64,000 nucleotides of DNA from Victivallis sp. Marseille-Q1083 (GTDB lineage: Bacteria > Verrucomicrobiota > Lentisphaeria > Victivallales > Victivallaceae), in the NCBI RefSeq assembly GCF_903645315.1, contig NZ_CAHJXL010000001.1:1-64000 (forward strand), read 5' to 3'. The notes under the pieces were generated by a model. The model was not told where the DNA came from. It saw only the letters and a list, made by a program, of their open reading frames with translations, and searched no databases. Positions 35,244 to 63,207 of the stretch are shown here, one piece after another. The position numbers and the translations under genes are program-made. Within the stretch, counting starts at the first letter, position 1; the number at the start of each line of letters is the position of its first letter.

Positions 35244-35253
35244 GTTCCAGAAC
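35244..35253. promoter_or_regulatory. Operator of the giant-cassette regulon, site A
   Basis: GTTCCAGAAC, one mismatch from the perfect palindrome GTTCCGGAAC found at three other cassette promoters. It lies 12 bp downstream of the -10, about at the transcription start. Confidence 0.75.
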
Positions 35254-35265
35254 GTCTACAATAGA

Positions 35266-35294
35266 ATACTAGCAAAATTTTTTCCTAAAGTCAA
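35266..35294 (-). promoter_or_regulatory. Promoter of giant cassette A
   Basis: Minus strand TTGACT (35294-35289), 17 bp ending in ATTTTGC, TAGTAT (35271-35266). It drives the regulator, pseudopilin and giant enzyme genes. Confidence 0.75.
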
Positions 35295-35350
35295 TCCCTT
35301 TTCTCAAAAAACCGGCTTTTTTCCCGTCTTTCGCCTCGAAAGGCAAAAAA

Positions 35351-35386
35351 AATTTCTCCGCCTTCGCCGATCCGGCCGGAGAAATT
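35351..35386 (-). terminator. Terminator of the pectate-lyase-like cassette
   Basis: AATTTCTCCG pairs with CGGAGAAATT (35377-35386), and the minus strand continues into eight T. It follows the minus-strand gene that stops at 35448. Confidence 0.8.
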
Positions 35387-35447
35387 TTTCGGAAAATGCG
35401 CCGTTCCCGCTCCGCGTACGCGCCCCGGAGCGCGGCAATCGCGCATT

Positions 35448-37769: not shown

Positions 37770-37788
37770 GAATCGACCTCCCCGCCAT

Positions 37789-39799: not shown

Positions 39800-42700
39800 T
39801 CAGAAATCGATGACCTCCTCCATCGTCGTGCCGTCCAGCAGGTTGATCACCCGGAACGTCCATTCGCCCGGCGACGGCGTCAAGCCGGGATCGACGACAA
39901 TTTCACCCCGTTCCCGGATGCCGTGATTGCCGGTGGAAGGCCAATAGGGCGTACCATTCGGCTCAAACACTTCCAGGCGGTAGATCCCGGCCGGTCCCGG
40001 ACTGGTAATGACGGCCTTGACGCAGCGGCCATCCCGTTCCAGCTCCAGCGAAAACGGCTGCGTCGGCTCCGGCAGCAGCGCCAGCACTTTGACGCCGAGC
40101 GGTTCCAGCGTCAAATCCAGCCGGTCGGCAACCGCCAGTTCCTGGTGCGCCAGCAAGTCATAAATATAATACTGGCGGTCGAATTGCAGCACGGCATCGT
40201 TGCGTTCCCGTTTGTCGCCCTCCATGCGGGTCAGACCGAGGTATTCATTGCCGTCGAGCCGGTAGCGCATCGCTTCCGTCGCCGGCGGCAACCGCAGCGA
40301 CCAGTCATCCGGCACGCCGGCAAGTTCGAAAGCCTGCCGGAAAAATTCGACGGCAGGATCGGCTTTCCGGCCGTCGGCCCGGATCGCTCCGTAATTGCCC
40401 GCCAGCACATTCAACAGCAGATGGCCATTCCGGCCGATCAAAATACGCTTTTCCGCCGCATCGGCCGGCACTCCGCCCTTCAGGACGATGGCCGGATCGG
40501 CCAGTTCCAGCACCGATTGACTGCCGTCAATCTTCAAGTTTTCCCCGGCGGCAGCCGGCCGGAAGGCGGCTTCGACGCCGAAAAGTTCCGCCAGCGGATT
40601 GTCTTCCCGCCTGGTCCCGTCGTCGTCGCAGACGCCCGGCAGGGAATCGGCAATCAACCGGCCGCCGCGCTCGACAAACGTCAGGATATTCTGCAAATCG
40701 GCATCGCTCAGTCCCTGGGCCAGCGGCAGGATCAGGAACGGCGTTTCCGCCGGGTCCAGCTTGTCCAGGTCAAGCGGATCGACGACGCGGGGGCCCTGGA
40801 AACCGATATTGCCGATCAGCGCGGTCCAACTGCCGAAATTCCGCGGATAAAGGCGGAAACGCGATTCCGTCTCCTTCGTATCCCCCGCGCCGCTGATCAC
40901 CAGCGACGGGATCGAAAAGAGGATGGCGAACGGCGACGACCGCCGGTTGGCCGGTTCGGTGATCACGTCCAGACCGGAGGACTTGATCTCGGCGATCATC
41001 GCCGCCGTTTCCTTGCCGTAATCGGTCAATTTCATATCGCCGTGGCGCATCAGGAAACCGGAGGCGAAATTGCCGTTGCCGGACAATCCGGACAGAATTT
41101 CCCGGTAGGTCATCTCCCGGACATAAGGAATCGGACGGTTGTAACCGGTCCAGACGCCCAACTGCGTTCCCGGCCTTTCAAAGCTGCGCAGCAGATCGTC
41201 AGTGCCGGAATTGTCCTGGTCGTAAGCGATGACCCGGGACAGGTACTTCATGCTGTCGTGCCAGTTGTAGCCGACATACATATTGGTTATCGTCATGCCG
41301 GAGATCGCCAGATTGCCGGCCGGATCGACCGCCTTCATCGCCTCATACTGATTTTTGACCGCGCCGGAAAAAGCGCCGAACATAAAAATCCGGTGAGCGA
41401 TCCACGGCAGAAAGTTGTCCTGCGCCGTCGCTTCGGCATGGGTGAACGGCCGTACCGCTTCCCAATCGGCCAATCGGGTATTCCAGGCCGCGTTGAGCAC
41501 TTCAACCGTACCATAGCGTTTCTGCAGCATTTCCCGGAAGGCGGCCAGACACCACGGCGATTGGCACAGATCGTGCGACCAGTCGCCGATTCCAAGCGAA
41601 TTTTCATCGGCGATGAAATAGGAATTCGGTCGATAGTCGGCCAGCAATTTCACGCCTTCGCCGACGTTATGGTACATTTCAGTCAGATACTCCGGATTGC
41701 GGAGGCACGGATTGCGTTCGACCCATTTCAACTCTTCGAGATTGTGCAGCGTCAGCCAGTGAATCCCGAGCGGAATATAATTCAAACGGCTCCGCAGCGC
41801 CGATTCGGCGCTTTTTTTCTGCTGTTCCGGATTGGTCAGCAACACATTGTCGCCGATCACCTCATCGAAACCGGCATCGGCCAGAATCCGGTAGTATTCA
41901 TCACTGTAATAATTGGCATTGCACCCCCAGATGGTAAAGGTCAGCCGCGGCCGCTCCGGCAGCGGCAAGGTGACGCTGGCGGCGGCCCGGTCGAGCATGA
42001 CGCCGTCGCGCCGCAATTCCGCCGTCACTTCACTGAGCACGGTCGCCGGCGCCGTTTCAAACTCGATGGCGACCTTCTCCTCCGGCCCGGCAGGGATGAT
42101 CTTCTGCGTACCCAGCGTCCGGCCGTAACGGTCTTTCGCCACCAGGCTGACTTCCGTATTGTTCCAATCGCCGCGCAGCCGCAACCGGCCGGTGACGGTT
42201 TCTCCCGGCTGCCAGGCCAGTTTATCCAGCGCGAACTCCTCCATGGCGCAAACGGCCGGACGGTTTTCCACCGCGGAGAACCAGTCGGCGGTATGGCCGT
42301 TCCGTTTCAGGAAAACATCGTAAAAGTAATCGCCGTCCAACTGCATTTTTTCCGGCAGCAATGCCAACTGGAATTGCGATTCCGGCGCCTGAAGCGTCAC
42401 TTCCTGCTGCTGTTCGGCCACTTTCCGGCCGAATTTATCGCGCGTTTCCCAGACCAGTTCGGCCGGAGCGGCCTCATCTGCCGCCACCGTTACGGTCAAA
42501 GTGTCTTTTTCCGGCGCCACCGCCACCAGCCGGTCCTCCGGACGGTCGCCGGCAGCCAGCCGCAACGCCCGCAGCAGTTGAGAAAAATGATAGTCATAGT
42601 AATTGAAGGTGCATTCCGTCCCGAACTTCGGAGCCGGGATCAGACCGAAACTCTGAATCTGCCATTCACGCGAATTCTGATTCAGACAATATTCTACCGA

Positions 42701-44434
42701 AATGACCTTGCCCTTGCCGCTGGAGTAAACTTTCAACGGCATCGCCTCCGGCGACGGATCGCGACGGATCGCTTTCAAATGGTCGAACGGCACCGCCCGA
42801 TTCAGTTCCAGCGTCGCCGCTTCATCGTATTCCAGCGGCAAACCAAGCTGGTCGACGCCATCGAGCGAATCGACATACACCAGTCCGGTTCCATCCGCCA
42901 CCTGCTGCAGGATCTGTTCCCTGGTGTCCTCCGGAAACGCATGCCAGCGGCACGACGCCCCGATCAGGATGACATCGTGCTCCTTCTGGAGAACCCGGCG
43001 CAAATATGACAGGGACTCCGGCGCGACCCAGCCGCGGTTGTCGTGCTGATTGAAAACGAACCAGTCCGGATAACCGACCTCCACCAAATCCATTTCCAAA
43101 TTGCCGCGCACTTCCAGTTCGCCGATATCGTGATGGCTCCAGGCGGTGGTGACGATCAAAATCTTCAACGGCCGTTCGGTATCGGCCGCCCAGCGGACGA
43201 TTTCCGGCGAGAATTCCTTGAAAAATCCGGCATGCTCCACGATATTGACAAAAAGTGAATTCTTGGCCGTCTTCGGCTGCTGCCGGACGGCGGGATCGAA
43301 ATTCTTCGTCAATTCGGCCACCACGACTCCGGACGGATCGTTCAGCGTCACCGCCACCTGGTCCTCCTCGGTCAGCGGCATGGCAAATTCGGCCGGCTCG
43401 AGCGCTTTCAACGCGATATTCCGCTCCGCACCGCCGCAACGCAGCGTCAGCGCCGGATAATCGCGGTCACTCAGCAGCCGTATCGTCACCGTCTCCCCGT
43501 CGCGCCGGAACATCGCCGCGATGCGGTTGTCCGCCGCGTCGACCGTTTCCAGACCGGCCAGCGGCATCACCGTATAACCGGTCCGGTAGATGAAATCGAA
43601 CAGCGGATCCTTCATTTCCGGCCGGGTATTCATCATCGCTTTGCCGACCGACAGCGGCCGGATCTTCAATTCGGGCGTCAGGAACTCCAGCGTGCTCTGG
43701 CCGGGGCCATCGTTCGGCAGAAAGTTGTAAAAACTCAACAAATCGGCGTAATCCGGCTCCAGCAATATACCGATCCCGGCGTCATTGATGCCGGCAGCCC
43801 AGCCGGCGGCGGTTTCGTTGGTCAAGATATCGCCGGTCTGTTCCGGCCAACGGACCGGCTCCAGCGCCGGACGGCCGGTGAAGAAATCCGCCCAGCCGGC
43901 CCGCAAGCCGCGGGGATAATAGTAACGCATCTGCTCCGTACCGGCCGGGAACGGCACGGTAACAAACCAGAGTTTGCCGAAGAAATTCGTGTCGGTCGGA
44001 TTGTCGACCGCATAATCCACCCGCACCGAGGCGGCATCGTGGGGCAGACGGTAAGTCTTGACCAAATGCAGCGGCGAATCATCATTTTCCAGCGTGATGG
44101 AGCTGTACACACCATCGTCCGCCGTCGCCGTCACCCGCCAGGGAGCGGCTTCGGTCTGCCGGACGTTGCCGTGCCCCACCATCACCAGCCGTTCCTGGCC
44201 GATGCCGCTGCCGGCCGGAGTCCGTTCCGGCGTATCCGCCGAAAGCAATTCCGGATGCCCCGGCTGCTTCATCGATTCGATCCTGCCGCCGCAGGCCGGA
44301 TCGACAATCACTTCCAAATATTCGTTGGCCAGACGATAACGCGGACCTTCCGCCGTTTCGATCTTCGCAACCTCCGCCCGGCCGGTCAGGCAAAGGCCCG
44401 ACAGGCCGAGCAGCAAGATAGTAATTTTCTTCAT
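39800..44434 (-). CDS. Giant secreted GH42-like multidomain enzyme, paralogue B
   Basis: 1,544 residues from ATG 44434 (AGAGGGGTT directly upstream); the frame is open over the preceding pseudopilin, but that part is not coding. Signal KKITILLLGLSGLCLTGRAE. Same domain order as the other three: mutarotase-like sandwich (LANEYLEVIVDPACGGRIES), GATase-like domain at about 430 (TTAWSHHDIGELEVRGNLEM), Ig-like domain (GDYFYDVFLKRNGHTADWFS), GH42-like barrel at about 835-1,200 with YFIADENSLGIGDWSHDLC and SPWCLAAFREMLQKRYGTVE, second GATase-like domain (FLILPLAQGLSDADLQNILT) and C-terminal sandwich. It is the most divergent of the four, for example RNGHTADWFS against VDGHTADWYT. Glycosidase function is inferred. 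Confidence 0.8.
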   Translation of the reverse strand: MKKITILLLGLSGLCLTGRAEVAKIETAEGPRYRLANEYLEVIVDPACGGRIESMKQPGHPELLSADTPERTPAGSGIGQERLVMVGHGNVRQTEAAPWRVTATADDGVYSSITLENDDSPLHLVKTYRLPHDAASVRVDYAVDNPTDTNFFGKLWFVTVPFPAGTEQMRYYYPRGLRAGWADFFTGRPALEPVRWPEQTGDILTNETAAGWAAGINDAGIGILLEPDYADLLSFYNFLPNDGPGQSTLEFLTPELKIRPLSVGKAMMNTRPEMKDPLFDFIYRTGYTVMPLAGLETVDAADNRIAAMFRRDGETVTIRLLSDRDYPALTLRCGGAERNIALKALEPAEFAMPLTEEDQVAVTLNDPSGVVVAELTKNFDPAVRQQPKTAKNSLFVNIVEHAGFFKEFSPEIVRWAADTERPLKILIVTTAWSHHDIGELEVRGNLEMDLVEVGYPDWFVFNQHDNRGWVAPESLSYLRRVLQKEHDVILIGASCRWHAFPEDTREQILQQVADGTGLVYVDSLDGVDQLGLPLEYDEAATLELNRAVPFDHLKAIRRDPSPEAMPLKVYSSGKGKVISVEYCLNQNSREWQIQSFGLIPAPKFGTECTFNYYDYHFSQLLRALRLAAGDRPEDRLVAVAPEKDTLTVTVAADEAAPAELVWETRDKFGRKVAEQQQEVTLQAPESQFQLALLPEKMQLDGDYFYDVFLKRNGHTADWFSAVENRPAVCAMEEFALDKLAWQPGETVTGRLRLRGDWNNTEVSLVAKDRYGRTLGTQKIIPAGPEEKVAIEFETAPATVLSEVTAELRRDGVMLDRAAASVTLPLPERPRLTFTIWGCNANYYSDEYYRILADAGFDEVIGDNVLLTNPEQQKKSAESALRSRLNYIPLGIHWLTLHNLEELKWVERNPCLRNPEYLTEMYHNVGEGVKLLADYRPNSYFIADENSLGIGDWSHDLCQSPWCLAAFREMLQKRYGTVEVLNAAWNTRLADWEAVRPFTHAEATAQDNFLPWIAHRIFMFGAFSGAVKNQYEAMKAVDPAGNLAISGMTITNMYVGYNWHDSMKYLSRVIAYDQDNSGTDDLLRSFERPGTQLGVWTGYNRPIPYVREMTYREILSGLSGNGNFASGFLMRHGDMKLTDYGKETAAMIAEIKSSGLDVITEPANRRSSPFAILFSIPSLVISGAGDTKETESRFRLYPRNFGSWTALIGNIGFQGPRVVDPLDLDKLDPAETPFLILPLAQGLSDADLQNILTFVERGGRLIADSLPGVCDDDGTRREDNPLAELFGVEAAFRPAAAGENLKIDGSQSVLELADPAIVLKGGVPADAAEKRILIGRNGHLLLNVLAGNYGAIRADGRKADPAVEFFRQAFELAGVPDDWSLRLPPATEAMRYRLDGNEYLGLTRMEGDKRERNDAVLQFDRQYYIYDLLAHQELAVADRLDLTLEPLGVKVLALLPEPTQPFSLELERDGRCVKAVITSPGPAGIYRLEVFEPNGTPYWPSTGNHGIRERGEIVVDPGLTPSPGEWTFRVINLLDGTTMEEVIDF

Positions 44435-44458
44435 AACCCCTCTTGAGATTCCTTTCAA

Positions 44459-44492
44459 AACGAGCCGGGCAGCTTGCACTGTCCGGCTCGTT
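44459..44492 (-). other. 14-bp intercistronic stem-loop, cassette B
   Basis: AACGAGCCGGGCAG pairs with CTGTCCGGCTCGTT (44479-44492) with one G-U pair and a 6-base loop. It lies between the pseudopilin stop and the giant enzyme start. A stretch TTTT lies 3' on the minus strand only after the stem (44458-44455), so partial termination is possible. Confidence 0.65.
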
Positions 44493-44526
44493 CCGGTTGT
44501 CTTGTCATGCCGTAATCCGGTCACTT

Positions 44527-45216
44527 TCAGCGAATGTCGTAGCTGCCCCACCACAACGGCGAATATACATACATTGCCGCGGTTTCCGGCGATTTCGCCA
44601 GCCACTCGTTGTACGATAGGCTGCGGGCCGAGGCGTCCAAAAACACCGCGCAACGATTCTTGCCGTGTTCCAGCGTCTGCCAGCGATCGTTGTCGCCGCC
44701 GTACGGAGAATCGGCAATATACTGATTGTAGCAGAGAAAATGAGCGGTATTGCTCGGCTGCTCGATATAGGAAGCGGTCAACTTCTGCGGCTCCGGCTCT
44801 TTCCAGCCTTTCGTCTGGTGAATATGATAGTTCAACCCGTAACCGACCCAGTACTTGATGCCGCCGATATCGGTGCCGCCGGTGATGGTGCTGGCCGGGC
44901 AAACGAAAACATTGTCGCGATTGTTCTTCAGGTCTTCCATCCCGCCGGTATATTCCGCCAGCATCATCTGAGCAATCTGGTCAGCCGGCGCCACCCAGTT
45001 GATCGTAAAACTGTTCCACGGCCGGTTGACGAAATAATCGTCGTAATCGCCGGCATAGAGCTGATTCGCCAAACCGATCTGCTTGAGATTGCCGACACAT
45101 TTGATTTCCAGCGCCTTGGCTTTCGCTTTGGCCAGCGCCGGCAGCAGCATGCTGGCAAGAATCGAGATTATTGCGATTACGACCAAGAGTTCAATCAACG
45201 TAAAATTCTTCTTCAT
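44527..45216 (-). CDS. Pseudopilin-like protein of giant cassette B
   Basis: 229 residues from ATG 45216, with AAGGAGG about 7 bases upstream. [20 protein letters not shown] at the N-terminus, Asn at the prepilin -1 position. [20 protein letters not shown] follows. The C-terminal motif of the family is replaced by [16 protein letters not shown]. It differs most from the other giant-associated pseudopilins in its soluble domain, in step with the divergence of giant paralogue B. It follows its regulator by 28 bp. Confidence 0.86.
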
Positions 45217-45244: not shown

Positions 45245-46363
45245 TCAACTATTTATCGACCAACCGGTTGAATTACCGGAGACAATTCGCGGCGGCAAAA
45301 ATATTCTTTCCGACGGTATCGGCCGTTCCCGGCGGCAGTAATCGACGATCCGGCTGATCATCTCCCGGCCGATTTCCCGGTAGGACGGCGCCACATGGCT
45401 GCAGACCGGGCAGAGCGACGACGCTCCGATGTACATGAAATCGATATCCCTGCCGGGCAGCAGACTCAATTTCGAAACCGCGTTGTACAACAATTTCAGA
45501 TCATCGCCGTTGTAGAACAGGAAATCAGGCTTTTCCCGCCGCAGGAATTCGACAATCTCGTCCTCCGCCGTCACGGTCGGCAAAGCCACCTCCAGCAACG
45601 CGTCCTCCGGCATTTCCAAACCGGCCGCCTGCCCCAACCGGCAATATTCCATCATCCGCCAGTGGAGAAAGGCGACGTCATCTTCCCAGGCCGGCACCGA
45701 AATACATCCGCATTTGCGATAACCGCGCCCTCTTATACCATTGACCAGGCATTCGACCAGTTCCTCATCACTGTAACCGACCGCCAGCTCATGCTCATAA
45801 TACTCCGCCGGACCGCCGAACTGGACCGCCGCCACCACCGCCACCTCGTTGCCGGCAATGGAACGCAGCTTGCGGCGCTGGTCGCCGTAGAAGATCGCCG
45901 CATCGTAGCCGGACAGCCGCTGCAACTGGCCGTTCAGCGCGAAGCTGTCTTCCGGCTCCGGAAAATATTCCAGATGGATATGGGTGTTGTTCGCAAACCC
46001 GACCTCCAGCATGCCGCGATAAATTTCATTGTTGGCATGCCAGTTGCCGACCGGCAGCACTTCCGGCAGAATCCCCACTTCCGGGAAAACCACGATCACC
46101 CGCAACGGCTTGTTGGCCACCGTATTGCACCGGCTGATGAAGATTCCCTTGGCCGGAACCCGGACGATCAGTTGATCGCGTTCCAGCAAATCCAGCGTCT
46201 GGTTGATCACCGTGGTGCTGACTTTGAACTCATCCCGCAGATTGCGGACGCTGTCCAGCTTGCGGCCGACCGGATAATAGCCGGAAGCGATACGACCGGT
46301 CAAAATATCGTACAACTGCCTGGCCAACGGAATGGCGATGTCTTTTTCCAAAACTTCCATCAT
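45245..46363 (-). CDS. GntR-type regulator with LacI-like sensor, giant cassette B
   Basis: 372 residues from ATG 46363 (ATG 46360 also possible; both have weak ribosome sites). [43 protein letters not shown] and [15 protein letters not shown]. The ligand domain has [60 protein letters not shown] and ends [19 protein letters not shown], keeping the CPxCSHV motif. It is clearly paralogous to the regulators of cassettes A and C but less similar to them than they are to each other. Its promoter site (GTTCCGATAC) is also the most diverged operator, which fits co-divergence of protein and site. Confidence 0.88.
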
Positions 46364-46394
46364 CAATCTACTTCTGTTTTTTCTGTAACGAACT

Positions 46395-46404
46395 GTTCCG
46401 ATAC
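46395..46404. promoter_or_regulatory. Operator of the giant-cassette regulon, site B (diverged)
   Basis: GTTCCGATAC within CTGTTCCGATACAG. The left half matches the GTTCCGGAAC consensus; the right half differs at two positions but the outer CTGT/ACAG arms still pair. It lies 15 bp downstream of the -10. Confidence 0.6.
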
Positions 46405-46419: not shown

Positions 46420-46448
46420 AGTATATCAAAAAATTCGGTAAAAGTCAA
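46420..46448 (-). promoter_or_regulatory. Promoter of giant cassette B
   Basis: Minus strand TTGACT (46448-46443), 17 bp, TATACT (46425-46420). The group II intron ends 47 bp upstream of this -35. Confidence 0.75.
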
Positions 46449-46495: not shown

Positions 46496-46573
46496 ATCGA
46501 GTAGGAGCCCGGTCATTAGTTGGCCGGGCGTCCTCTCACACCACCGTACGTGCCGTTCGGCATACGGCGGTTC
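46496..46573 (-). ncRNA. Group II intron domains V and VI
   Basis: On the minus strand, immediately after the maturase stop, CCGCCGTATG(C) pairs with CGTACGGTGG around a central CCGAACGG hairpin (46541-46570): domain V. Domain VI is GCCCGG/CCGGGC (46507-46529) with an unpaired CTAAT region that should carry the branch-point A. The element ends CCTACTCGAT at 46496. These parts form the catalytic core and lariat site. Confidence 0.75.
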
Positions 46574-47960
46574 AGCAGCTTGAGTGCAACGCTTTGTACC
46601 GAAGTAGGATATCGTCATACCCTATTTCGGCAATGCGTTGAGACGGCAATACACGATGTAAAATCCAACTACGGGCAATATGCCAGTAGCCTTTCCTCGT
46701 ATTCGCCCATTCCCACGCTTTTCCCTCGGAAATACCCAACGATTGCAGTCGCGTAAATCGTGTCCGTACTCGTTTCCACTGTTTCCAAACATACGTCCGA
46801 ATTTTCCGTTGAATCCATTCATTCATGTTTTGCATAAACATCTTCATGTCCGCAATCGCATAGTATCCGAGCCATCCGACGGTATATTGCCGAAGTTTGT
46901 ACAGCATATATTCCACCGAATTTCCCTGATTCCTTCGGGTCAGCTCGCGAACCTTGGCTTTGAAGCGGTCTATAGACTTCTCGTGTATTCGAATTCCGGC
47001 CTGTCCTTTCGTCGTACTTCGCAGTGCGAAGCCGAGAAACTTCAGCTTCAGCGGACTTCCCGCTTTACTTTTGGATTCGTTTACTTTGAGTTTCAATTTC
47101 GCTTCAAGAAACCGTCTGCTGCTCGCAAGTACGCGTTCGGCGGCGCGTTGACTTCTGACGTAGATGTTGACATCGTCCGCATATCGTACGAACTTGTGTC
47201 CACGGCGTTCCAATTCCCGGTCGAAAGCGGTCAGGTAGATGTTGCTCAGCAATGGCGAAAGATTGCCGCCCTGTGGACTGCCTTCTTCCGTTCGCGTCAC
47301 CACGCCATTGATCATGACTCCGCTCTTCAAGTAGCGTTTAATCAGGCACAAAACTCGTTGATCAGAGATTTTGGCCCGCAACATTTCCATCAACAGCTCA
47401 TGGTTCATGGTGTCGAAATACTTGCTCAAGTCAAGATCGACAACCCGCCGATAGCCTTGATTGTAGTATTTCCGTGCTTGCCGGATGGCCTGATGAGCGC
47501 TACGCCCCGGTCGGAAACCGTAGCTGTTTTCTGAAAATTCCTCCTCGAATATCGGGCAGAGGACCTGCGATATTGCCTGTTGAATCATCCGATCCATGCC
47601 CGTTGGAACACCAAGCATCCGTATCCCCCCGTCCGGTTTCGGGATTTCAACCCGGCGCACCGGTTGCGGGCGATACGTTTCGGTTCGGAGATTTTCAAGG
47701 AAACTTTCCTTGTGTTCGCACAGATACGCCAACAGGTCGTCAACGGTCATTCCGTCCACGCCCGGCGCTCCGCCGTTTCTCTTGACTTGCTTGTACGCAC
47801 GGTTGAGGTTGTTACGCTCAAGGATGCGTTCAAACAAATCAGCACCGTCTTTCGCTTCAGTTTCCCGCGTAAGCATGCTCCGCACTCCCGGATTCTCTTC
47901 GGCTTCCAGCCTATCCATCCCCGGGCAGTTCCGTTTCCGGATTTTCTGCTCTCTACACAT
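46572..47960 (-). CDS. ltrA: Group II intron reverse transcriptase/maturase
   Basis: 462 residues from ATG 47960 (GAAAGGTG upstream), encoded inside the intron. The reverse transcriptase domain has APGVDGMTVDDLLAYL, IRMLGVPTGMDRMIQQAISQ, YGFRPGRSAHQAIRQARKYY, VVDLDLSKYFDTMNHELL (first catalytic Asp), EGSPQGGNLSPLLSNIYLTA and the active-site FVRYADDVNIYVRS. A maturase region follows (LKFLGFALRSTTKGQAGIRI, LRQYTVGWLGYYAI). No HNH endonuclease domain is visible at the C-terminus, as in the endonuclease-less bacterial classes. The frame is intact, so the element may still be mobile. Confidence 0.93.
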   Translation of the reverse strand: MCREQKIRKRNCPGMDRLEAEENPGVRSMLTRETEAKDGADLFERILERNNLNRAYKQVKRNGGAPGVDGMTVDDLLAYLCEHKESFLENLRTETYRPQPVRRVEIPKPDGGIRMLGVPTGMDRMIQQAISQVLCPIFEEEFSENSYGFRPGRSAHQAIRQARKYYNQGYRRVVDLDLSKYFDTMNHELLMEMLRAKISDQRVLCLIKRYLKSGVMINGVVTRTEEGSPQGGNLSPLLSNIYLTAFDRELERRGHKFVRYADDVNIYVRSQRAAERVLASSRRFLEAKLKLKVNESKSKAGSPLKLKFLGFALRSTTKGQAGIRIHEKSIDRFKAKVRELTRRNQGNSVEYMLYKLRQYTVGWLGYYAIADMKMFMQNMNEWIQRKIRTYVWKQWKRVRTRFTRLQSLGISEGKAWEWANTRKGYWHIARSWILHRVLPSQRIAEIGYDDILLRYKALHSSC

Positions 47961-48009
47961 GCTGCACCTTTCACTTGCGAAAGATCGACTACTGTTCGGC
48001 CCTTCCCGT

Positions 48010-48025
48010 AAAAAAAAAAAAAAAA
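48010..48025. repeat. Homopolymer of 16 A inside the intron
   Basis: Sixteen consecutive A on the plus strand (T on the intron strand) in the linker between domain I/IV RNA and the maturase start. Such a long run is unstable and the longest in the window. Confidence 0.85.
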
Positions 48026-48403
48026 CACGGTACTATGGCCTCTGCTGACTTCTCAACGTTCAGCCGCACATCACTGTACGGGTTGAAATTACCATGCATT
48101 CACGGCTTCATTCATACCGTTGAGATCTCCCCGGATAAGAGCGATAACTTTCATCCCAGGCGCCTGGTACATCTACACCACAAGGTTCGGGCAGTATTGG
48201 ACTTCGCTTTGTTGTGCAAGCTCGTCCGCCTTGCAAATGCCTTATATGTACTTTCTGTTCGTCAGGCCGGGAATTTGCCGCCGACTTCCTTCAGATTCCA
48301 CCTCGCGGTGGACACCCTTGCCTTAAGCTAACAGTTCCTACTGCCAAGTCTGTAACGGACTTTCACCGTCAAGTTATCACCCATGCCGGGCGTACATAAA
48401 AAG

Positions 48404-51400: not shown

Positions 51401-53111
51401 ACACCTTCAACGGCATCGCCGCCGGATCCGCGTCGGTCCGGATCGCCGCCAGCTTGTCATAGGGCACCGCCCGGTTCAATTTGACCGTCTCCGCTTCGTT
51501 GTACCGCAGTTCCAGGCCGGTCGAATCGATGCCGAACGGCGGATCGACGAAAACCAGACCGACGCCCGATTCAATTTTCGCCTTGATCTTTTCCTTGACT
51601 TCGTCCGGCAGGATTTCCCAGCGAATCGCCGAGGAAATCATGATGACGTCATAATCGGCGTCGATCACCTGCCGCGCATAGGCGGCCGGGTCCGGCGCGA
51701 TCCAACTGCGGTTGTCACTGATATCGAACGCCAGCGAGAACGGATAGGCGACTTCGACCAGTTCGAGGTCGAAGTTGCCGCGCACCGTCAGCTCGGCGCT
51801 GTCGTGATGGCTCCAGGCGGTGGCGAACAGCAGCAATCTGGTTTTCGCTGCCGCGTCGGCGTCCCAGCGGATGATTTCCCGCCGAAAATCGGTGAACAAT
51901 GCGGCATATTCCGGCGTGAAGGTGAATATTTTGTCCTTCTCCGCCACCGGCGCCGGCCGGTGGCCGGCATCGAAACTTCTGGTCAGAACGGCGATTCGGC
52001 GGCCGTCGGCCGCCGTCAGCTCCAGAGAAACGACCGGCTCATCATCCGGGCACGGCAATTCCACTGCGACCTCCCGCAATGCCGGCAGCGTAATCCGCCG
52101 GCTTTCCTCGCCGCAGCGCACCGTAATTTCGCCGTAATCGCGATCGCTCCGCAACGCCGCCGTCAGTTTTCCGTCCGCCCGCTTCAAACCGGCGGCGATA
52201 TGGTTGTCGGCCGCCTCCACCGACCGGCAGCCGTACAGCGGCGTGACACAATAAGAGAAGCGGAAGATGAAGTCGAACAACGGGTCCTCCCGTTCCGGCC
52301 GGGCCTGTGCCAGCTCCCGGCCCTCCGCCAGCGGCCGGATTTTCAGATCGGAAGTCAGAAATTCCAACGTACCCTGGTTGTTGCCGGCCGGCAGCCAGTT
52401 GTAGAAATTGCGCAAAGCCGGGTAATCGACTTCCAACAGCACTCCGTCGCCGGCGTCGTTCAGCGCCGCCGCCCAGCCGGCCGCCGGCTGATTGGTGACG
52501 ATATCGCCGGTCGTCTCCGGCCAGCGGAGCGGCTCCAGCACCGCTTCGCCGCCGCTGAAATCCGGCCAGTTCGAACGCTGCGCGAACGGATAATAGTAGC
52601 GCATCGACGTCGTGCCGGCCGGGAACGGCACGGTGACGAACCAGAGGTTGCCGAGAAAGTCCCGGGAGCCGGGGTTGTCGGCCGCATAAGCGACCTCCAG
52701 GCTGGCGGCATCCTCCCGCAGGGTGTAGGTTTTGACCAGGTGCAGCGGAGAATCGCCATTTTCCAGCGTGATGAAACTGCCGCCGTCCCGGTCTCCGAAG
52801 TCGACGACCTGCCAGGCCGCGCCGGAAGTCTGTTCGGCATCGACGGTGACGCCGTGATCCCGTAGCCGTTCGAGCCCGAAGCCGCTGCCGCCGGGCGACG
52901 TTCCCTCCGAACCGGGTGAAAACAAATTCGCTTTGCCCGGCTGGCGAAAGCTCTCCACCCGGCCGCCGGCCGCCGGATTGACGACGGCGGACAAATAATC
53001 ATTGGATAATTGATAAAGAGTCTGCTGGCCTTTTTCCAGACGGGTTACCGCCCCCTCCAGCCAACCGGCAGCCAGGAGGAAAACCGCCGTCAAAGAGAAA
53101 ATTTTATTCAT
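48456..53111 (-). CDS. Giant secreted GH42-like multidomain enzyme, paralogue C
   Basis: 1,551 residues from ATG 53111 (the codon before is GTG). Signal NKIFSLTAVFLLAAGWLEGA. Mutarotase-like sandwich (LSNDYLSAVVNPAAGGRVES), GATase-like domain near 430 (LLFATAWSHHDSAELTVRGN, YDVIMISSAIRWEILPDEVK), Ig-like domain near 710 (GDYFYNVFLKVDGHTADWYT). The GH42-like barrel (838-1,200) has YFVGDENSLFRWDLPHDYC, SPWCLAAFRQWLQQRYASLD and LNAAWRTEFAAWDEVKPD. A second GATase-like domain near 1,230-1,270 (YLILPLAQAMSDADIEAIER, GGKLIADVLPGG) and a C-terminal sandwich follow. It is closest to paralogue D; a 131-bp stretch is identical at DNA level. The candidate acid/base is Glu of GDENSL. Confidence 0.8.
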   Translation of the reverse strand: MNKIFSLTAVFLLAAGWLEGAVTRLEKGQQTLYQLSNDYLSAVVNPAAGGRVESFRQPGKANLFSPGSEGTSPGGSGFGLERLRDHGVTVDAEQTSGAAWQVVDFGDRDGGSFITLENGDSPLHLVKTYTLREDAASLEVAYAADNPGSRDFLGNLWFVTVPFPAGTTSMRYYYPFAQRSNWPDFSGGEAVLEPLRWPETTGDIVTNQPAAGWAAALNDAGDGVLLEVDYPALRNFYNWLPAGNNQGTLEFLTSDLKIRPLAEGRELAQARPEREDPLFDFIFRFSYCVTPLYGCRSVEAADNHIAAGLKRADGKLTAALRSDRDYGEITVRCGEESRRITLPALREVAVELPCPDDEPVVSLELTAADGRRIAVLTRSFDAGHRPAPVAEKDKIFTFTPEYAALFTDFRREIIRWDADAAAKTRLLLFATAWSHHDSAELTVRGNFDLELVEVAYPFSLAFDISDNRSWIAPDPAAYARQVIDADYDVIMISSAIRWEILPDEVKEKIKAKIESGVGLVFVDPPFGIDSTGLELRYNEAETVKLNRAVPYDKLAAIRTDADPAAMPLKVYDCGRGKVVSVDYRLNQNDLEWEIDSYGMIPNPDFAVGSRFNYYDYHFSQILRAVRLAAQTALPAEITGLAAGEDQLTLEVAAVAAAEGTVTLEVRDKYGEVVDRAESETALPAGRNELPLALPLEKMTLDGDYFYNVFLKVDGHTADWYTVVQNRPAAAALEAFALVKKSFGSGEPVAGNIRFRGDVAGAELELKSVDRYGRVLYRRLFDDLPPELPFAVEPEVRPETTMSTLTATLRRDGRVLDRAEATWTTKLSPRSGLTFTCWGSCSNYFADEYHRALVEMGFDEVTGYDGELANLDLQRTAAEAALRSNINYIPMGICRLLGWTGADQPESNGVRPTCLRDPEYLRYLSDGIGERVEQLADYHPNSYFVGDENSLFRWDLPHDYCRSPWCLAAFRQWLQQRYASLDELNAAWRTEFAAWDEVKPDMAAEAIEKQRFASFIDHRHFMFSAITNAVITQYEAMKAADPDGRLAISGMELTDLYTGFDWHDALNYVTRVVAYDRLNTGLDDVLRSFAAPGAGLGDWTGYLMPIPEIREKNYREILNGLRANGNWANGYLLRHGDLKIVDYGLQLKAMIAEIRQSGLDVITGPANRVASPFALYFSIPAMLTSDASDFLGYIVAHKRNYHRDFGGWTAVLANLGYPGPLVVGPEELPELDPAVSPYLILPLAQAMSDADIEAIERYVAAGGKLIADVLPGGCYENGTVRQNNPFREIFGVDAKFRSAFGGKPGEFLTIDGRTVELEIGDPDLEVLDGRPQFAADRRLMIGKDGHLLLNFLPNNYRYIRDKAAAGDPAVELFRTALQYAGVPADWLVRLPPNAELGRYRLDGNEYVGLTRAKVGREERKDAVLQFDREYYLYDLLERRPLGRADRFETALDSYGVRLLALLPEPAQPYSLTLERDGRRVRAVVANPGVAGLFRLEVYQPDGTLYRPATGNHAGRDRTEILVDPGLEPMPGAWKFKVINLLDNTTAEAATGF
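50931..51061. repeat. 131-bp exact repeat shared with 58510-58640
   Basis: This stretch of paralogue C is identical base for base with 58510-58640 of paralogue D, and near-identity continues for about another 100 bp. Flanking coding DNA of the two genes differs clearly. It encodes the Ig-like KVDGHTADWYTVVQNRP region. Confidence 0.85.
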
Positions 53112-53173
53112 CACATTGTCTCAGTAGTTACTTCGTTCTTCTTTCTTCATCGCTGAAAATATCGAAACAAAAC

Positions 53174-53232: not shown

Positions 53233-53904
53233 TTACGGAATATCAAGGCCGTACACCGGATAATAGCACAAGTCATACAGGCGCTGCTGCGGTTCGATCG
53301 CCTGCCGATACGAGATCCCCTCGCAGTGGCCGTCCGCAAAGACGGCATTCAGAAAACTGGCGTGACGGAACGCTTCCAGCGGCCACATCCATTCCCGCTC
53401 GCCCCACTGGCCAACCCAACCGTAACCGTTGTGAGTGTCGGTAAACAACAATGCCTGGGCGGGATTTTTCACATTGGAGAGTTTGCACGGTGGAAAATCA
53501 CTTGAAAGAGTGCCGTCTTCGTCCATACCGCCGCCAATAAACATATTCAACCCGTATGTGTAGTAGGTCCGATCTCCGTTGTAGCTCGGACATTCCAATG
53601 CGGCGTGGTCTCCCTGCTTGAAATCATCCCAGTTGACAATCCTGACTCCCATATAATCCGCCAATTTATCAAACCAACCACTATCCGATCCCCAACTGTA
53701 ATAAATGACGGCAAGCGGAGCGGAATCGTTATCGTCGCCGGCATACATGACGGTCGCCAACCCTGTCTGTTTGAGGTTGCTGGTACATTTGATCGCCACC
53801 GCCTTGGCTTTGGCCTTGCCCAGAGCCGGCAGCAGCATACTGGCAAGAATGGCGATGATCGCAATCACTACCAACAGTTCAATCAACGTAAATTTCGTTC
53901 TCAT
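53233..53904 (-). CDS. Pseudopilin-like protein 2 of giant cassette C
   Basis: 223 residues from ATG 53904 (AAGGAG 8 bases upstream; the frame opens 23 codons earlier). [20 protein letters not shown] at the N-terminus with Lys at the -1 position. It shares [60 protein letters not shown] and [20 protein letters not shown] with the pseudopilin of cassette D, and ends with [11 protein letters not shown]. It is the second of two adjacent pseudopilin genes and the one next to the giant enzyme gene. Confidence 0.87.
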
Positions 53905-53980
53905 GGTCTTTCTCCTTGTTTTCCGGTGTTTTTTATTTTGGAAATCCCGTCGATATTCTTTATAAAACCGCAATGGCGGC

Positions 53981-54676
53981 TCACCAGTCGATTTCCTTTC
54001 CGGCGATCATCGGGAAGCAATACTCGCCCTGCAGGACGTGCAGCGGGTCCACCCCCTCTCCCTGGTCGTAGCTGAACGGTTCGACATGCCCGTCCACACA
54101 GGCGATATTCAGCCGCCGGTCATGCCGGAAGGCTTCCGACGGAATCGTCTCCGCCATGAATTCCCATTGCCCGATATAGCCGTTCTGCTGCACGTCGGCA
54201 TATGCCGCCAGCCGGCTCGGATTGCCGATGCTGCTGGTCCGGCAGGGCCGGAAGGCGCCGCCGGTCACATCTTCCATCGTATGGGCGTCGCCATCCCATT
54301 TGCCGCCGAACCAGGCGTTCATGCCGTAACTGTACGGTTGAACTTCTCCGAAATAATCCGGACACTCGAGCACGCCGTAATCTCCCTGGCGATATTCGTC
54401 AAGCGGCACCCGCTTCACCCCGACATAGGCCATCAATCCATAAATCCATTCGGCTTCGCCGCCCCAACTGTAACTGGTGAAGGCCAGCGGCGGATAATCC
54501 TTGTTGTCGATGGCGTACATCGCCGTAGCGGCGACCAGTTGTTTGCTGTTGCCGGTACATTTGATCGTCATCGCCTTCCCCCGCGCCTTTCCCACCACCG
54601 GCAGCAGCAAACCGGCCAGGATCGAAATGATCGCAATCACCACCAGCAATTCGACAAGTGTAAATTTCCGTCTCAT
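53981..54676 (-). CDS. Pseudopilin-like protein 1 of giant cassette C
   Basis: 231 residues from ATG 54676 (GGAAAGGGAG upstream). [20 protein letters not shown] at the start, Arg at the -1 position, then [20 protein letters not shown]. Compared with its neighbour, the helix exit reads [10 protein letters not shown] where most relatives have LLPALxKAK. It ends with [12 protein letters not shown]. The soluble domain ([40 protein letters not shown]) is closer to the cassette A pseudopilin than to the gene 76 bp downstream. So cassette C combines two pseudopilin types, by fusion of cassettes or a duplication. Confidence 0.87.
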
Positions 54677-54707
54677 TTTTCTCCCTTTCCTGTTTCGGCA
54701 CTGCCGT

Positions 54708-55811
54708 TCAAACACCGGTGGAACTGCCGCCGATGATTCGTGACTTCAAAAAAACCGGCTCTTTCGGCAGCGGCCGATGCTGGCGGCGGCAGTTGACCAC
54801 CTCGGCGATGATCCGCCGGCCGATCTGCACAAAAGGCGGTTCGACATGAGTGCACATCGGGCAGATCGGCGTCGTGCCGATATAGATGAAATCCAGATCC
54901 CGGCCGGGCAGCAGGTGCAGGCGGGCCAGCGCATTGTACAGCAGTTCCAGCTTGTCGCCGTTGAAAAAGACAAAATCCGGCTGCTCCCGACGCAAAAACG
55001 CCATGATCCGCTCTTCGGCGTCGGCCGGATTCAGGCCCAACGCCAGCACCGCCGACTCCGGCATCGCCAGCCCGGCCGCCCGGCCCAACCGGCGATACTC
55101 GGCAGCGCGCCAGCCGAAAAAGGCGATGTCATCCTCCATCCCCGGCACGATGATGCAGCCGCAACGGCGGTAGTCGCGCTGCTTCAGATAGTCGACCAGG
55201 CAGCGGATCGTCTCGGCATCGCTGAAGCCCACTTTCAACTCCTCGCCGTAGCGTCTGGCCGGACGCCCCCACTGGACCACCGCGATAATCGGCACTTCAC
55301 AACGGGCCAGCAGCCGCAGATGGTGACACTGATCACCGTAAAAGACCGCCGCGTCATAGCCGGCCAGCCGCTGCAACTGACTGTTCAGCTCCATCGAATC
55401 CGCCGTTTCCGGGAAATATTCCAGATGAATACTCGTATTGTTCAAAAAACCGGTGTCCAGCATGCCCCGGTAGATATCCGCATTGGTGTACCAATCGCTC
55501 AGCGTCAGCACCTCCGGCGAAATGGCCGGCTCCGGAAAGACCAGAATCACCCGCAGCGGCCTGGTGGCGACGGTATTTTTCCGGCTGATGAAGATGCCCT
55601 TGGCCGGCAGTCGGACCACCAGTTGGTCTCTCTCCAGCAAATCCAGCGTCTGCATCACCACCGTGTTGCTGACTTTGAACTCATTGCGCAGCGCGCGGAC
55701 GCTGTCCAGCTTCCCGCCGGGCGGATAGTGCCCGGCAGCAATGCGTTGAACCAGTACATCATAAAGCTGCTCGGCCATCGGCGCGGCAACGTCTTTCTCG
55801 AGAACATCCAT
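54708..55811 (-). CDS. GntR-type regulator with LacI-like sensor, giant cassette C
   Basis: 367 residues from ATG 55811, 23 bp after the operator. [58 protein letters not shown]. Sensor: PLRVILVFPEPAISPEVLTL, YDAAVFYGDQCHHLRLLARC, DFVFFNGDKLELLYNALARL, and ICPMCTHVEPPFVQIGRRI at the C-terminus, again with CPxC[ST]HV. Very similar to the cassette A regulator over its whole length, so the two should recognise the same operator. It is followed after 31 bp by the first pseudopilin. Confidence 0.9.
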   Translation of the reverse strand: MDVLEKDVAAPMAEQLYDVLVQRIAAGHYPPGGKLDSVRALRNEFKVSNTVVMQTLDLLERDQLVVRLPAKGIFISRKNTVATRPLRVILVFPEPAISPEVLTLSDWYTNADIYRGMLDTGFLNNTSIHLEYFPETADSMELNSQLQRLAGYDAAVFYGDQCHHLRLLARCEVPIIAVVQWGRPARRYGEELKVGFSDAETIRCLVDYLKQRDYRRCGCIIVPGMEDDIAFFGWRAAEYRRLGRAAGLAMPESAVLALGLNPADAEERIMAFLRREQPDFVFFNGDKLELLYNALARLHLLPGRDLDFIYIGTTPICPMCTHVEPPFVQIGRRIIAEVVNCRRQHRPLPKEPVFLKSRIIGGSSTGV

Positions 55812-55834
55812 AAGAGTTCAACCTCAACTTAACT

Positions 55835-55844
55835 GTTCCGGAAC
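55835..55844. promoter_or_regulatory. Operator of the giant-cassette regulon, site C
   Basis: Perfect palindrome GTTCCGGAAC in the context AACTGTTCCGGAACGT, 14 bp downstream of the -10 and 23 bp before the regulator ATG. Confidence 0.8.
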
Positions 55845-55858: not shown

Positions 55859-55887
55859 ATAATAGCAAAAAAATTACTGAAAGTCAA
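55859..55887 (-). promoter_or_regulatory. Promoter of giant cassette C
   Basis: Minus strand TTGACT (55887-55882), 17 bp ending TTTTTTTGC, TATTAT (55864-55859). Confidence 0.78.
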
Positions 55888-60690: not shown

Positions 60691-60739
60691 GAATCACCAT
60701 TCCGTTCCAAAGGTTTGTCAGCTTGATACAATCAATATT

Positions 60740-60765
60740 CCGGGAGCGGAGCCGTCCGCTTCCGG
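60740..60765 (-). other. Intercistronic stem-loop, cassette D
   Basis: CCGGGAGCGGA pairs with TCCGCTTCCGG (60755-60765) with one G-U pair and a 4-base loop, between the pseudopilin stop (60807) and the giant enzyme start (60690). Confidence 0.6.
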
Positions 60766-60806
60766 AGTACGTCATCATTTTTTATGGCAAGAGAATTGGC
60801 GGAGCT

Positions 60807-61484
60807 CTACGGAATCGCCTCGCCTTTCACCGGGTAATAGCACAGATCCCATACGCGCTGCCAGGCATCGTCCGTCGGCTGCCGGACGGAAAGCGACTCA
60901 CAGTGTCCGTCCGCAAAGGAGGCGTTGAGATAATTGCTGTGACGGAATGCTTCATCCGGACACATCCACTCCATCTCGCCCCATTGGCCAATCCAGCCAT
61001 AGCCGTTGTGGGTATCGGTCATCAGCAGGGCCTGGCCGGAATTTTTGACATTGGAGAGCTTGCACGGCACGAAGTCGGTCGCCGAACCGTCCTCATTGAT
61101 ACAGCCGCCGATCCACATGTTCAAGCCATAGGTATTGTAGGTCTTGTCGCCGGAATAACTCGGGCACTCCATCGCGGCGTGATCGCCTTGCTTGAAATCA
61201 CTCCAGGCAACAAGCTTGACGCCCATGTATTCCGCCAGTGGGGCAAACCAGCCGGTGTCGGATCCCCAACCGTAATAGATGACGGCGAGCGGCGCCGAAT
61301 CATTGTTATCGTTGGCATACATATTGGTGGCCAGAGCCAATTGTTTGAGGTTGCTGGTGCATTTGATCGACACCGCTTTGGCTTTGGCTTTGCCCAGCGC
61401 CGGCAGCAGCATGCTGGCAAGAATCGCAATAATCGCAATCACGACCAGCAATTCAATCAGTGTGAATTTCATGTTGTGTTTCAT
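60807..61484 (-). CDS. Pseudopilin-like protein of giant cassette D
   Basis: 225 residues from ATG 61484 (TAAGGAAAAAA directly upstream; ATG 61472 is possible). [20 protein letters not shown] with Lys before Phe, then [20 protein letters not shown]. The soluble domain shares [38 protein letters not shown] and [17 protein letters not shown] with the second pseudopilin of cassette C, and ends with [13 protein letters not shown]. It is first in its transcript; the leader from the promoter at 61645 is about 150 nt and contains a small GGCTTCGCC/GGCGAA stem (61517-61534). Confidence 0.87.
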
Positions 61485-61621
61485 TTTTTTCCTTACTTTG
61501 GTTGTTTTGAACATTTTTCGCCGGTGTTGGCGAAGCCTTTTCATTTTCAGCCAATCAAATCGGTTCCGGCAGCAATCGGCACAATTCCAATCAAGCGACA
61601 GAATTCAACCAAGACTTAACT

Positions 61622-61631
61622 GTTCCGGAAC
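61622..61631. promoter_or_regulatory. Operator of the giant-cassette regulon, site D
   Basis: Perfect GTTCCGGAAC in the context AACTGTTCCGGAACG, 13 bp downstream of the -10. Here it controls a pseudopilin gene directly, with no regulator gene in the cassette. Confidence 0.8.
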
Positions 61632-61644
61632 GGAATCTATAATA

Positions 61645-61673
61645 ATTATAGCAAAAAATTTTCCGAATGTCAA
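61645..61673 (-). promoter_or_regulatory. Consensus promoter of giant cassette D
   Basis: Minus strand TTGACA (61673-61668), 17 bp ending TTTTTTGC, TATAAT (61650-61645): a full consensus match at both boxes, predicting very strong transcription unless repressed at the adjoining operator. Confidence 0.85.
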
Positions 61674-61907
61674 TACCTAAAATAAAAAACCGGAAATTTT
61701 TTTGCCTTTCCATCGTTTTTGAACGAGAAAATTCTCTGAAAAAATTTTTTTCCCTCGGAAAATCCAGGCTGAAACACTCATTCCGGCAGGCTGGATGCCC
61801 TAGCGGCTTGAGATTGCCGGTGCAGTCGATCGACATCGCTTTGGTCTTTGTTTTGCCCGGCACCGGCAGCAGCATACCGGCAAGAATTATGATAACAGCA
61901 ATCACTA

Positions 61908-63019
61908 TAGATTCGGCAATTAACATACGTGCAATATTTGCTTGATGGTGTATATTATCATCATGGAAACTCAAGATGCCCGAAAACTCGATAAGGTCGC
62001 TCTTGAAGAGCGGCGCAAGCAGGCCGTGAGATTGTATCAAAGCGGCAAATGTAATAATTGTACGGAAATCGGAAAAATCGTCGGAGCGCACCGCAACACG
62101 GTGGGCAAGTGGATAAGCAAGTGGAAAAAAAGCGGCTTGTCTGCTTTGAAAGTAAAGAAATGCGGTCGTCCAGTCGGCTTTGGACGCCGTCTGCTTCCGC
62201 ATGAAGAGAGTAAGATACGGAAAGATTTGGTCGACCATTGTCCGGATCAGTTAAAATTGCCATTTGCGCTCTGGACTCGTCAGGCGGTACGGTTGCACAT
62301 CAAGATTTCCTTTGGAATCGAAATACCAGTCCGAACCATGGGGGAGTACTTGAAACGCTGGGGATTTACGCCGCAAAAACCAGTTAAGAAAGCTTATCAG
62401 CGCAATGAGGCGCACGTTCAAAAATGGCTGATTGAGGAGTATCCCCGAATCAAAAAGCTGGCAAAATCAGAAGACGCGGATATCTTTTGGGGGGATGAAA
62501 CAGGAATTCGCAATGACGAGGCCAAGGGCCGCAGTTATGCGCCGAAAGGCAACACTCCGGTGCAAGCAGTCAATCCGGTACGCGAAAAAGTTAATATGAT
62601 CAGCGCGATTACCAACCAGGGGAAAACTCATTTCATGTTTTACAGCGAAACGATGACGGCTCAACTCCTGATCCAATTCATGGAACGTCTGATTCGTCAA
62701 AATGAGCGGAAAGTGTATTTGATTCTGGATAACCTGCGGGTTCACCACAGCAAAACGTTGACTGGCTTTCTGCAGGAAAACGCGGCTTTCATCAAGTTAT
62801 TTTTCTTGCCGAGCTACAGTCCCGACCTGAACCCGGATGAATATCTCAACCGCGACTTGAAATCAAATCTGAACAACAAGCCCTTGGGACGCGCCAAAGG
62901 AAAAATAACCGAACATGCCAAGCAACATATGGAAATGATAGCTGAACAACCGGAACGAATCAAGAAATTATTCCATTCCAAGACTGTTTTATATGCAAGT
63001 TAGTTAGTTGCCGGTACAA
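61908..63019 (+). mobile_element. IS630-family insertion sequence
   Basis: A 1,112-bp element flanked by TA (61906-61907 and 63020-63021), the target duplication typical of IS630/Tc1 relatives. Imperfect terminal inverted repeats are visible: left TAGATTCGGCAATTAAC... and right (reverse strand) TTGTACCGGCAACTAAC..., matching at 18 of the first 26 positions. The single transposase frame is intact. Confidence 0.88.
61963..63003 (+). CDS. IS630-family transposase
   Basis: 346 residues from ATG 61963 (an in-frame ATG at 61945 and TTG at 61942 could add six or seven residues). The N-terminal HTH region (CNNCTEIGKIVGAHRNTVGK, WISKWKKSGLSALK) is followed by a winged part (FGIEIPVRTMGEYLKRWGFT). The DDE catalytic domain shows DIFWGDETGI (first Asp), VYLILDNLRVHHS (second Asp) and LPSYSPDLNPDEYLNRDLKS (third acidic residue). 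It is a single full-length frame, with no frameshift. It would move the 1.1-kb element by cut and paste at TA sites. Confidence 0.93.
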   Translation: METQDARKLDKVALEERRKQAVRLYQSGKCNNCTEIGKIVGAHRNTVGKWISKWKKSGLSALKVKKCGRPVGFGRRLLPHEESKIRKDLVDHCPDQLKLPFALWTRQAVRLHIKISFGIEIPVRTMGEYLKRWGFTPQKPVKKAYQRNEAHVQKWLIEEYPRIKKLAKSEDADIFWGDETGIRNDEAKGRSYAPKGNTPVQAVNPVREKVNMISAITNQGKTHFMFYSETMTAQLLIQFMERLIRQNERKVYLILDNLRVHHSKTLTGFLQENAAFIKLFFLPSYSPDLNPDEYLNRDLKSNLNNKPLGRAKGKITEHAKQHMEMIAEQPERIKKLFHSKTVLYAS

Positions 63020-63153
63020 TATCAACAATTCAACCAATGTGATTTTTTTTCGACTTCTCATTTTTTCCCTGGAGTTAGTCGATTCAGACATTTTCCGCCG
63101 CTGCAACGGCAAATACAAAGGCAACTGTTTACCGTTTCAAACCATGCTAAACT

Positions 63154-63163
63154 GTTCCGGAAC
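63154..63163. promoter_or_regulatory. Operator of the giant-cassette regulon, site E
   Basis: Perfect GTTCCGGAAC in the context AACTGTTCCGGAACGTCCT, identical to site C over 17 bases. It precedes the broken pseudopilin. Confidence 0.8.
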
Positions 63164-63178
63164 GTCCTCTTATTAGAA

Positions 63179-63207
63179 ATAATAGCAAAAAATTTTCCAA
63201 ATGTCAA
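63179..63207 (-). promoter_or_regulatory. Promoter of the ruined fifth giant-type cassette
   Basis: Minus strand TTGACA (63207-63202), 17 bp ending TTTTTTGC, TATTAT (63184-63179). Apparently still functional, now reading into the split pseudopilin and the IS630 element from behind. Confidence 0.75.

Follow-up and report, generated by a model that had tools for sequence, protein, structure and literature searches.

Five minus-strand promoters in the window, by which we mean the whole stretch analysed here (bases 1-64000 of contig 1, in a genome of 4.82 Mb and five contigs), carry a shared palindromic site just beyond the -10 box. These sites are probably autorepressor operators of GntR-LacI hybrid repressors that cassette duplication, together with recombination, would have spread. 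In the model that we favour, each regulator would repress its own promoter by binding as a dimer to a 16-18 bp palindrome of the form (A)CTGT-N6-ACAG(T). The site would cover about +5 to +22, assuming that +1 lies ~7 nt after the -10, and the bound dimer would hinder RNA polymerase, by occluding it or by blocking its escape. A sugar would then release the repressor, and regulator, pilin and large GH42-like enzyme would come on together. We infer repression and sugar induction because the regulators are of the AraR/LacI type. Through several duplications of the cassette, the same operator would now precede a number of cassettes, including regulator-less ones that would probably depend on a paralog encoded elsewhere. 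Promoter, operator and reader domain may have travelled as one unit that recombined with other sensor domains.

All five promoters, with -10 boxes ending at 35266, 46420, 55859, 61645 and 63179, could be re-found in the sequence as originally predicted (Table 1). The -35/-10 spacing is 17 in 5/5, and the distance from the -10 to the GT of the site is 12, 15, 14, 13 and 15 nt, respectively. The promoter formula given in the original prediction fits four of them, the -10 of 46420 (TATACT) being looser. What lies behind the promoters had also been read correctly: regulator genes follow three (35266, 46420 and 55859), 61645 leads to a pilin gene with no regulator before it, and 63179 heads a ruined cassette whose pilin is interrupted by an IS630-type transposase gene. 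The site reads GTTCCAGAAC at 35244-35253, GTTCCGATAC at 46395-46404 and GTTCCGGAAC at 55835-55844, 61622-61631 and 63154-63163. When the five promoters are aligned, GGAACAGTT is invariant; promoter and site are kept, while the stretch from the -10 to the site differs in sequence and, within class A (defined below), in length too.

Table 1. Promoters, predicted operators and genes of the cassettes in the window.
Feature	Positions	Strand	Basis or remark
Large GH42-like protein, 1563 aa	28629..33320	-	A2 cassette
N-methylated pseudopilin	33410..34084	-	Pfam N_methyl 3.4e-4, just under cut-off
GntR-LacI hybrid regulator A2, 369 aa	34112..35221	-	Pfam GntR 1.7e-12, no Peripla_BP_3 match; 79% aa to 54708
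Predicted operator, class A, GTTCTGGAACAGTT on minus strand	35240..35253	-	14-mer scan, promoter alignment
Promoter TTGACT-17-TAGTAT	35266..35294	-	pattern scan
Large GH42-like protein, open frame 1700 aa, start uncertain	39800..44902	-	B cassette
Pseudopilin	44527..45216	-	B cassette
GntR-LacI hybrid regulator B	45245..46360	-	Pfam GntR 4e-12; Peripla_BP_3 2.8e-4, below cut-off
Predicted operator, class B, right part of CTGTATCGGAACAGTT	46391..46404	-	14-mer scan
Promoter TTGACT-17-TATACT	46420..46448	-	sequence reading
Large GH42-like protein, 1552 aa	48456..53114	-	A1 cassette
Two pseudopilin genes, 53981-54715 and 53233-53973	53233..54715	-	Pfam N_methyl just under cut-off
GntR-LacI hybrid regulator A1, 367 aa	54708..55811	-	Pfam GntR 2.3e-14; Peripla_BP_3 2.6e-6, above cut-off
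Predicted operator, class A, GTTCCGGAACAGTT	55831..55844	-	14-mer scan
Promoter TTGACT-17-TATTAT	55859..55887	-	pattern scan
Large GH42-like protein, 1552 aa	56032..60690	-	61645 cassette
Pseudopilin without regulator before it	60807..61484	-	behind 61645 promoter
Predicted operator, class A, regulator-less promoter	61618..61631	-	14-mer scan
Promoter TTGACA-17-TATAAT	61645..61673	-	pattern scan
Pseudopilin gene split by insertion, then truncated	61790..63061	-	approximate limits, by eye
IS630-type transposase gene (DDE_3) inside split pilin	61942..63003	+	Pfam
Predicted operator, class A, ruined cassette	63150..63163	-	14-mer scan
Promoter TTGACA-17-TATTAT	63179..63207	-	pattern scan

What is the extent of this operator? 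The bare 10-mer GTTCCGGAAC was rejected as such: it occurs at 13 places in the genome, against 3 for a control pattern, and its ten copies outside the window all lie within stop-free frames of 304-899 codons. A genome scan for this 10-mer near -10 boxes, put forward in the original prediction as a check, gave none of the ten non-window copies among the 107 promoter-profile matches listed. Near copies are no evidence by themselves, because near matches to the 10-mer are over-represented in the window generally (70 with up to two mismatches vs 40.6 expected). The 14-mer GTNNNGGAACAGTT is found 10 times in the 4.82 Mb (control pattern, 2), and seven copies stand at regulator-family promoters, namely the five of the window, C1:2747331 and C1:2947465. 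Of the three off-family copies, two are in frames that run without a stop for 265 and 561 codons; the third, C2:839579, lies outside genes, just before a likely start codon. A strict -35/-10 pattern followed by ACAGTT has five matches in the genome (control, 0), four in the window (46420 is not among them) and one at C1:2955885. A sequence-only profile of the five window promoters yields further full-length matches at C1:2947455, C1:2747322 and C1:228228, together with weaker ones at C1:2955880 and, in the promoter part only, C1:3524727. Because the regulator promoters show symmetric forms of the site (GACTGTAGTACAACAGTT at 2954752, ACTGTGTTACAACAGT at 3524802, GCTGTATCGGAACAGTT at 45245 and 2746204), the predicted operator is best written in the form given above, an imperfect GntR-type palindrome whose arm GGAACAGTT is strongly kept. 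The window sites fall into two subclasses, cGTTCyGGAACAGTT (class A; 35266, 55859, 61645 and 63179) and CTGTATCGGAACAGTT (class B; 46420), which correspond to two regulator subgroups; class A sites (54708, 34112) have a poor left arm, GTT only. Palindrome strength alone is a weak test of a single promoter, and the operator case rests on recurrence: single promoters of classes A and B were not significant against shuffles (p 0.06-0.74), a shuffle test on 30 promoters gave 4/30 at p 0.05, and a second palindrome-strength test gave p 0.60-0.66 for 54708 and 45245. Upstream of 34112 the best palindrome is a different one, ATGTTAAGGTTAACAT (p 0.022).

The genes behind these promoters belong to a cassette, present in several copies in the genome, that joins a GntR-LacI hybrid sensor to a pilin-like protein and a large GH42-like enzyme. 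The GntR winged helix (PF00392) is found at the N-terminus of 3/3 window regulators, and Peripla_BP_3 is above the cut-off in one of them, below it in another and absent from the third. A C-terminal LacI-type periplasmic-binding-protein domain is weakly indicated by a match of the C-terminal part of the family profile to the LacI-family structure 3e3m (E 1e-4); the AlphaFold model, which is of low confidence (mean pLDDT 52), shows alternating strand and helix in the sensor part. The genome holds six near-full-length paralogous regulators of this type and one remnant (C1:228438). Sites are present at the promoters of all six whole-length paralogs, one of which has an internal stop, and no such palindrome was seen by eye at the promoter of C1:2500167, the own paralog that comes next in similarity (28% identical). 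At C1:228228-228758 the remnant regulator has beside it a promoter (C1:228228) whose site, GTTCCGGATCAGTT, resembles class A but for one base; the products of the small open frames behind this promoter look, by eye, like secreted ones. A gene with a peptidase S24 (LexA-like) domain (63551-63979) is located just upstream of the ruined cassette.

One of the six paralogs, C1:2746204 (E), is a mosaic. Its codons 1-62 are 97% identical in DNA to 45245 (B), and its codons 80-360 are 99% identical to 2954752 (C). The sites that distinguish B from C favour 45245 up to nt 189, except nt 129, and 2954752 from nt 196 onwards (compared site by site to nt 330 and in blocks for the rest), which places the switch within 7 nt at the end of the reader domain. 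The mosaic has an internal TAG at codon 29. Its homology to 45245 starts 131 bp upstream of the start and so takes in promoter and operator, and its homology to 2954752 continues downstream, at the same offset, across a 426-aa open frame that appears to be an insertion-sequence-like gene. In the window, a group II intron with a reverse transcriptase (46572-47960) occupies 46496-48312, with the 48456 enzyme gene on one side and the 46420 promoter on the other, and ends a few bases upstream of 46492, where the homology to the mosaic's promoter starts. The regulator 2954752 itself looks like an older mosaic, with a reader domain nearest to that of 3524802 (D; 73% aa vs 61% to 45245) and a sensor that, among intact paralogs, is nearest to that of 45245 (80% vs 37% to 3524802). 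The reader tree joins C+D (support 99/98) and B+E (99/99), and the sensor tree joins C+E (100/100) and B+C+E (100/100). These trees conflict: forcing on one half the clades of the other gave AU p values of 0.012, 2.3e-4, 1.5e-5 and 6.3e-5, for clades named after the identities had been seen. Enzymes seem to have been exchanged between cassettes too, because the genes at 48456-53114 and C1:2947570-2952147 (behind 2954752) are 93.7% identical in DNA over 4.6 kb while the regulators 54708 and 2954752 share only 56% of residues. In the mosaic and in the paralogs the operator class goes with the reader domain. This joint inheritance would support recognition of the site by that domain without proving it, because operator and reader domain are physically linked.

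How much of the likeness among sites is due simply to the copying of cassettes? The class A operator of 18 bp is much better conserved than the sequence on either side (identity 0.87, 94/108, across the four promoters, regulator-less 61645 included, vs 0.42 in the 60 bp upstream and 0.33 in the 60 bp downstream); such islands would speak for selection on the site, with a weight that depends on the age of the copies. In class B (operator 0.96, 60 bp downstream 0.44) descent may explain more, because the flanks are still alike (0.71 in the 60 bp upstream). The mosaic's promoter is also homologous over 115 bp to the regulator-less promoter C1:2947455, which heads a pilin gene and whose leader aligns with the last ~60 nt of the 45245 regulator and with the intergenic stretch (score 81 vs shuffle maximum 25). 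Because ~60 nt of a regulator tail are kept there, the regulator was probably deleted at this place. The leaders of 61645 and 63179 gave no regulator remnants beyond shuffles, the score of the 61645 leader against the tail of C being 28, equal to the shuffle maximum. The promoter at 63179 heads a split pilin, as a decaying leftover might, whereas 61645 heads unbroken pilin and enzyme frames. Of seven relatives searched, five have a single copy each of the exact sister operator TGGACTAGTCCA, located at its own regulator, a distribution that suits descent; exact matches number 0 in the other two, and a control for this search gave one match, in one of those two genomes. We consider it rather unlikely that the sites are alike through cassette copying only, a reading in which every regulator would act solely on the promoter of its own gene, and promoters without a regulator would be decaying leftovers free of trans-control. 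Under the autorepressor-operator model, it is plausible that the regulator-less cassettes are controlled by another cassette's regulator.

Evidence on which protein reads the site comes from related genomes. A profile search at E 1e-25 found homologs in 14/78 genomes, our own included, and a stricter one at E 1e-60 matched in the own genome only (1/61). We compared 24 upstream regions, six own (the remnant left out) and 18 from other genomes. A G[GT]N6[AC]C palindrome with at least 4/6 pairs lies within 45 nt after the -10 in 17/24 of them (shuffles: mean 0.9, maximum 4); a clear site is missing in the other seven, six of which show none and one of which (L079) falls below the pairing threshold. 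With the GT..AC trait of GntR sites, 6/6 own regulators and 3/18 homologs pass the threshold, and one more homolog has it below the threshold. Regulators with an SRGT recognition helix have GG..CC sites in 8/8 cases, either TGGACTAGTCCA-like or TGGTTCAAACCA, and those with other helices have GT..AC in 10/10 cases that show a site (L079 included, below threshold), six showing none. The chance of this association is 2.3e-5 if rows are independent, but the rows are related, and on a sensor-domain tree of the 17 rows with both traits there are three independent changes, all concordant (p 0.25). One relative, L094, carries TCTGTACCGGTACAGA, which is perfectly palindromic and has the same centre as class A. 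Because the palindrome stands at 6/6 near-full-length paralogs, has the GT..AC form, recurs before homologs and follows in its class the DNA-binding domain among own paralogs, this GntR subfamily very probably recognises it as its site. The original prediction was right about the kind of site; its extent had to be widened from a 10-mer to 16-18 bp, and its single site divided into two subclasses. The motif does fall within the transcribed leader, as it would if it were a leader element or the site of some other, global regulator. We nevertheless regard such an origin as very improbable: site classes differ among paralogs and track the reader domain, in relatives a different recognition helix goes with a different site, and AACAGTT follows within 45 nt only 4/83 non-family promoter matches, two of which look like the site (C2:298648, and C1:2739219, the latter without a good promoter).

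Most of the profile matches, about a hundred or more (150 of 1200 candidates scored, at least 107 matches, 93 analysed), contain the -35/-10 part with a T-rich spacer and TGn. Yet the site is almost certainly not just a piece of some strong promoter common in this genome: what follows the -10 changes from one promoter to another, the AACAGTT arm is as scarce as just described, and GGAACAGTT does not stand after most promoters of this type. For the 78 open frames behind non-family promoters, Pfam gave N_methyl 21, GntR 20 and LacI 18 among the matches listed. Exact 12-mers within 45 nt after the -10 are common to 19 pairs of promoters when the regulator family is included (1.5 in shuffles), and to 8 pairs among 79 non-family promoters (1.1, maximum 6 in 200 shuffles), a count that left out second promoters of the same gene. 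Sharing of 10 bases among non-family promoters is in slight excess (25 vs 16.4), reached by 8/200 shuffles. A palindrome, TTCTACGTAGAA, lies at or near the -10 end of four promoters (C1:1339580, 1340748, 1341668 and 353903), three of which head pilin genes, and may be a second shared operator; no regulator was identified for it. The five-promoter set is thus one case of what appears to be a wider layout in this genome. Other promoters of this kind show similarities of their own. C1:747010 (before a pilin gene) and C1:1751197 (before a GntR regulator gene), 1 Mb apart, both have TTATACTCAGTT after the -10. C1:1209106 and C1:1213864, ~5 kb apart, one before a pilin gene and the other before a 487-aa open frame, are largely the same over the 45 nt that follow the -10. 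Behind the pilin promoter C2:298648 stands TCGGCGAACAGTTCG, which may be a weak class B site into which a base has been inserted.

How do these regulators compare with known systems? AraR of Bacillus subtilis has an N-terminal GntR winged helix and a LacI-type sensor. The regulators described here are like it in this architecture, in the palindromic GT..AC site and in their proposed role as sugar repressors. They differ in spacing, which is GT-N4-AC in the AraR consensus At(T/A)tGTaCGTAcaa(A/T)T, as given in an excerpt of PMC4218819, and GT-N6-AC at 6/6 own regulators, and in their targets, which are pilin and GH42-like enzymes in several paralogous cassettes. A search of solved structures only, at E up to 1, gave 27 distinct sequences with no AraR entry among them, the best match to the family profile being a PLP-dependent (MocR-like) protein, 7pq9 (E 7.5e-7). 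A separate sequence search listed one sequence, again not an AraR structure. The winged helix of NagR/YvoA (HutC subfamily) matches profile positions 4-79 (E 2e-5 to 3e-5), but its recognition helix differs, as does its sensor domain from the LacI-type sensor here. According to excerpts of PMC4494728, an analysis that took in FadR, HutC and YtrA only, GntR family sites follow NyGTNxACNy, with bases that change together with recognition-helix residues; the GT-AC spacing is 3 or 2 nt in FadR and 4 in most HutC sites. The palindrome found here is likewise of the GT..AC form but has a spacing of 6. So wide a spacing is not unheard of, because YtrA sites, too, have their GT and AC at a distance from the middle. 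Paralogous LacI/GntR sugar regulons combine local autoregulation with a few extra targets. Local autoregulation is proposed here too, whereas the multiplication of cassettes in one genome and the natural mosaic regulator, whose break falls where the reader domain ends, set the present case apart. A literature search found nothing, among the matches listed, on the GntR-LacI subfamily in such cassettes. The kind of system is already known; what makes it interesting is its mosaicism and the wider class of promoters.

It is possible, though somewhat short of an even chance, that promoter and operator are exchanged together with the reader domain, as one unit. Cassettes recombining where the reader domain ends could then swap the operator class and keep sensor and enzyme, and wiring could evolve apart from sensing. 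The hundred or so promoters of one type in this genome, many of which precede pilin or GntR/LacI regulator genes and several pairs of which have a site in common, would offer places for this. If the autorepressor-operator model is true, the GntR-LacI subfamily gains a testable operator, with class A sites expected for 54708 and 34112, class B for 45245, and weak or no binding at TACAACAGT sites. Paralogs B, C and D together with the mosaic E make up a natural domain-swap series in which operator class, reader, sensor and enzyme appear to have been recombined, and this series opens the insulation and rewiring of duplicated sugar-sensing circuits to direct test.
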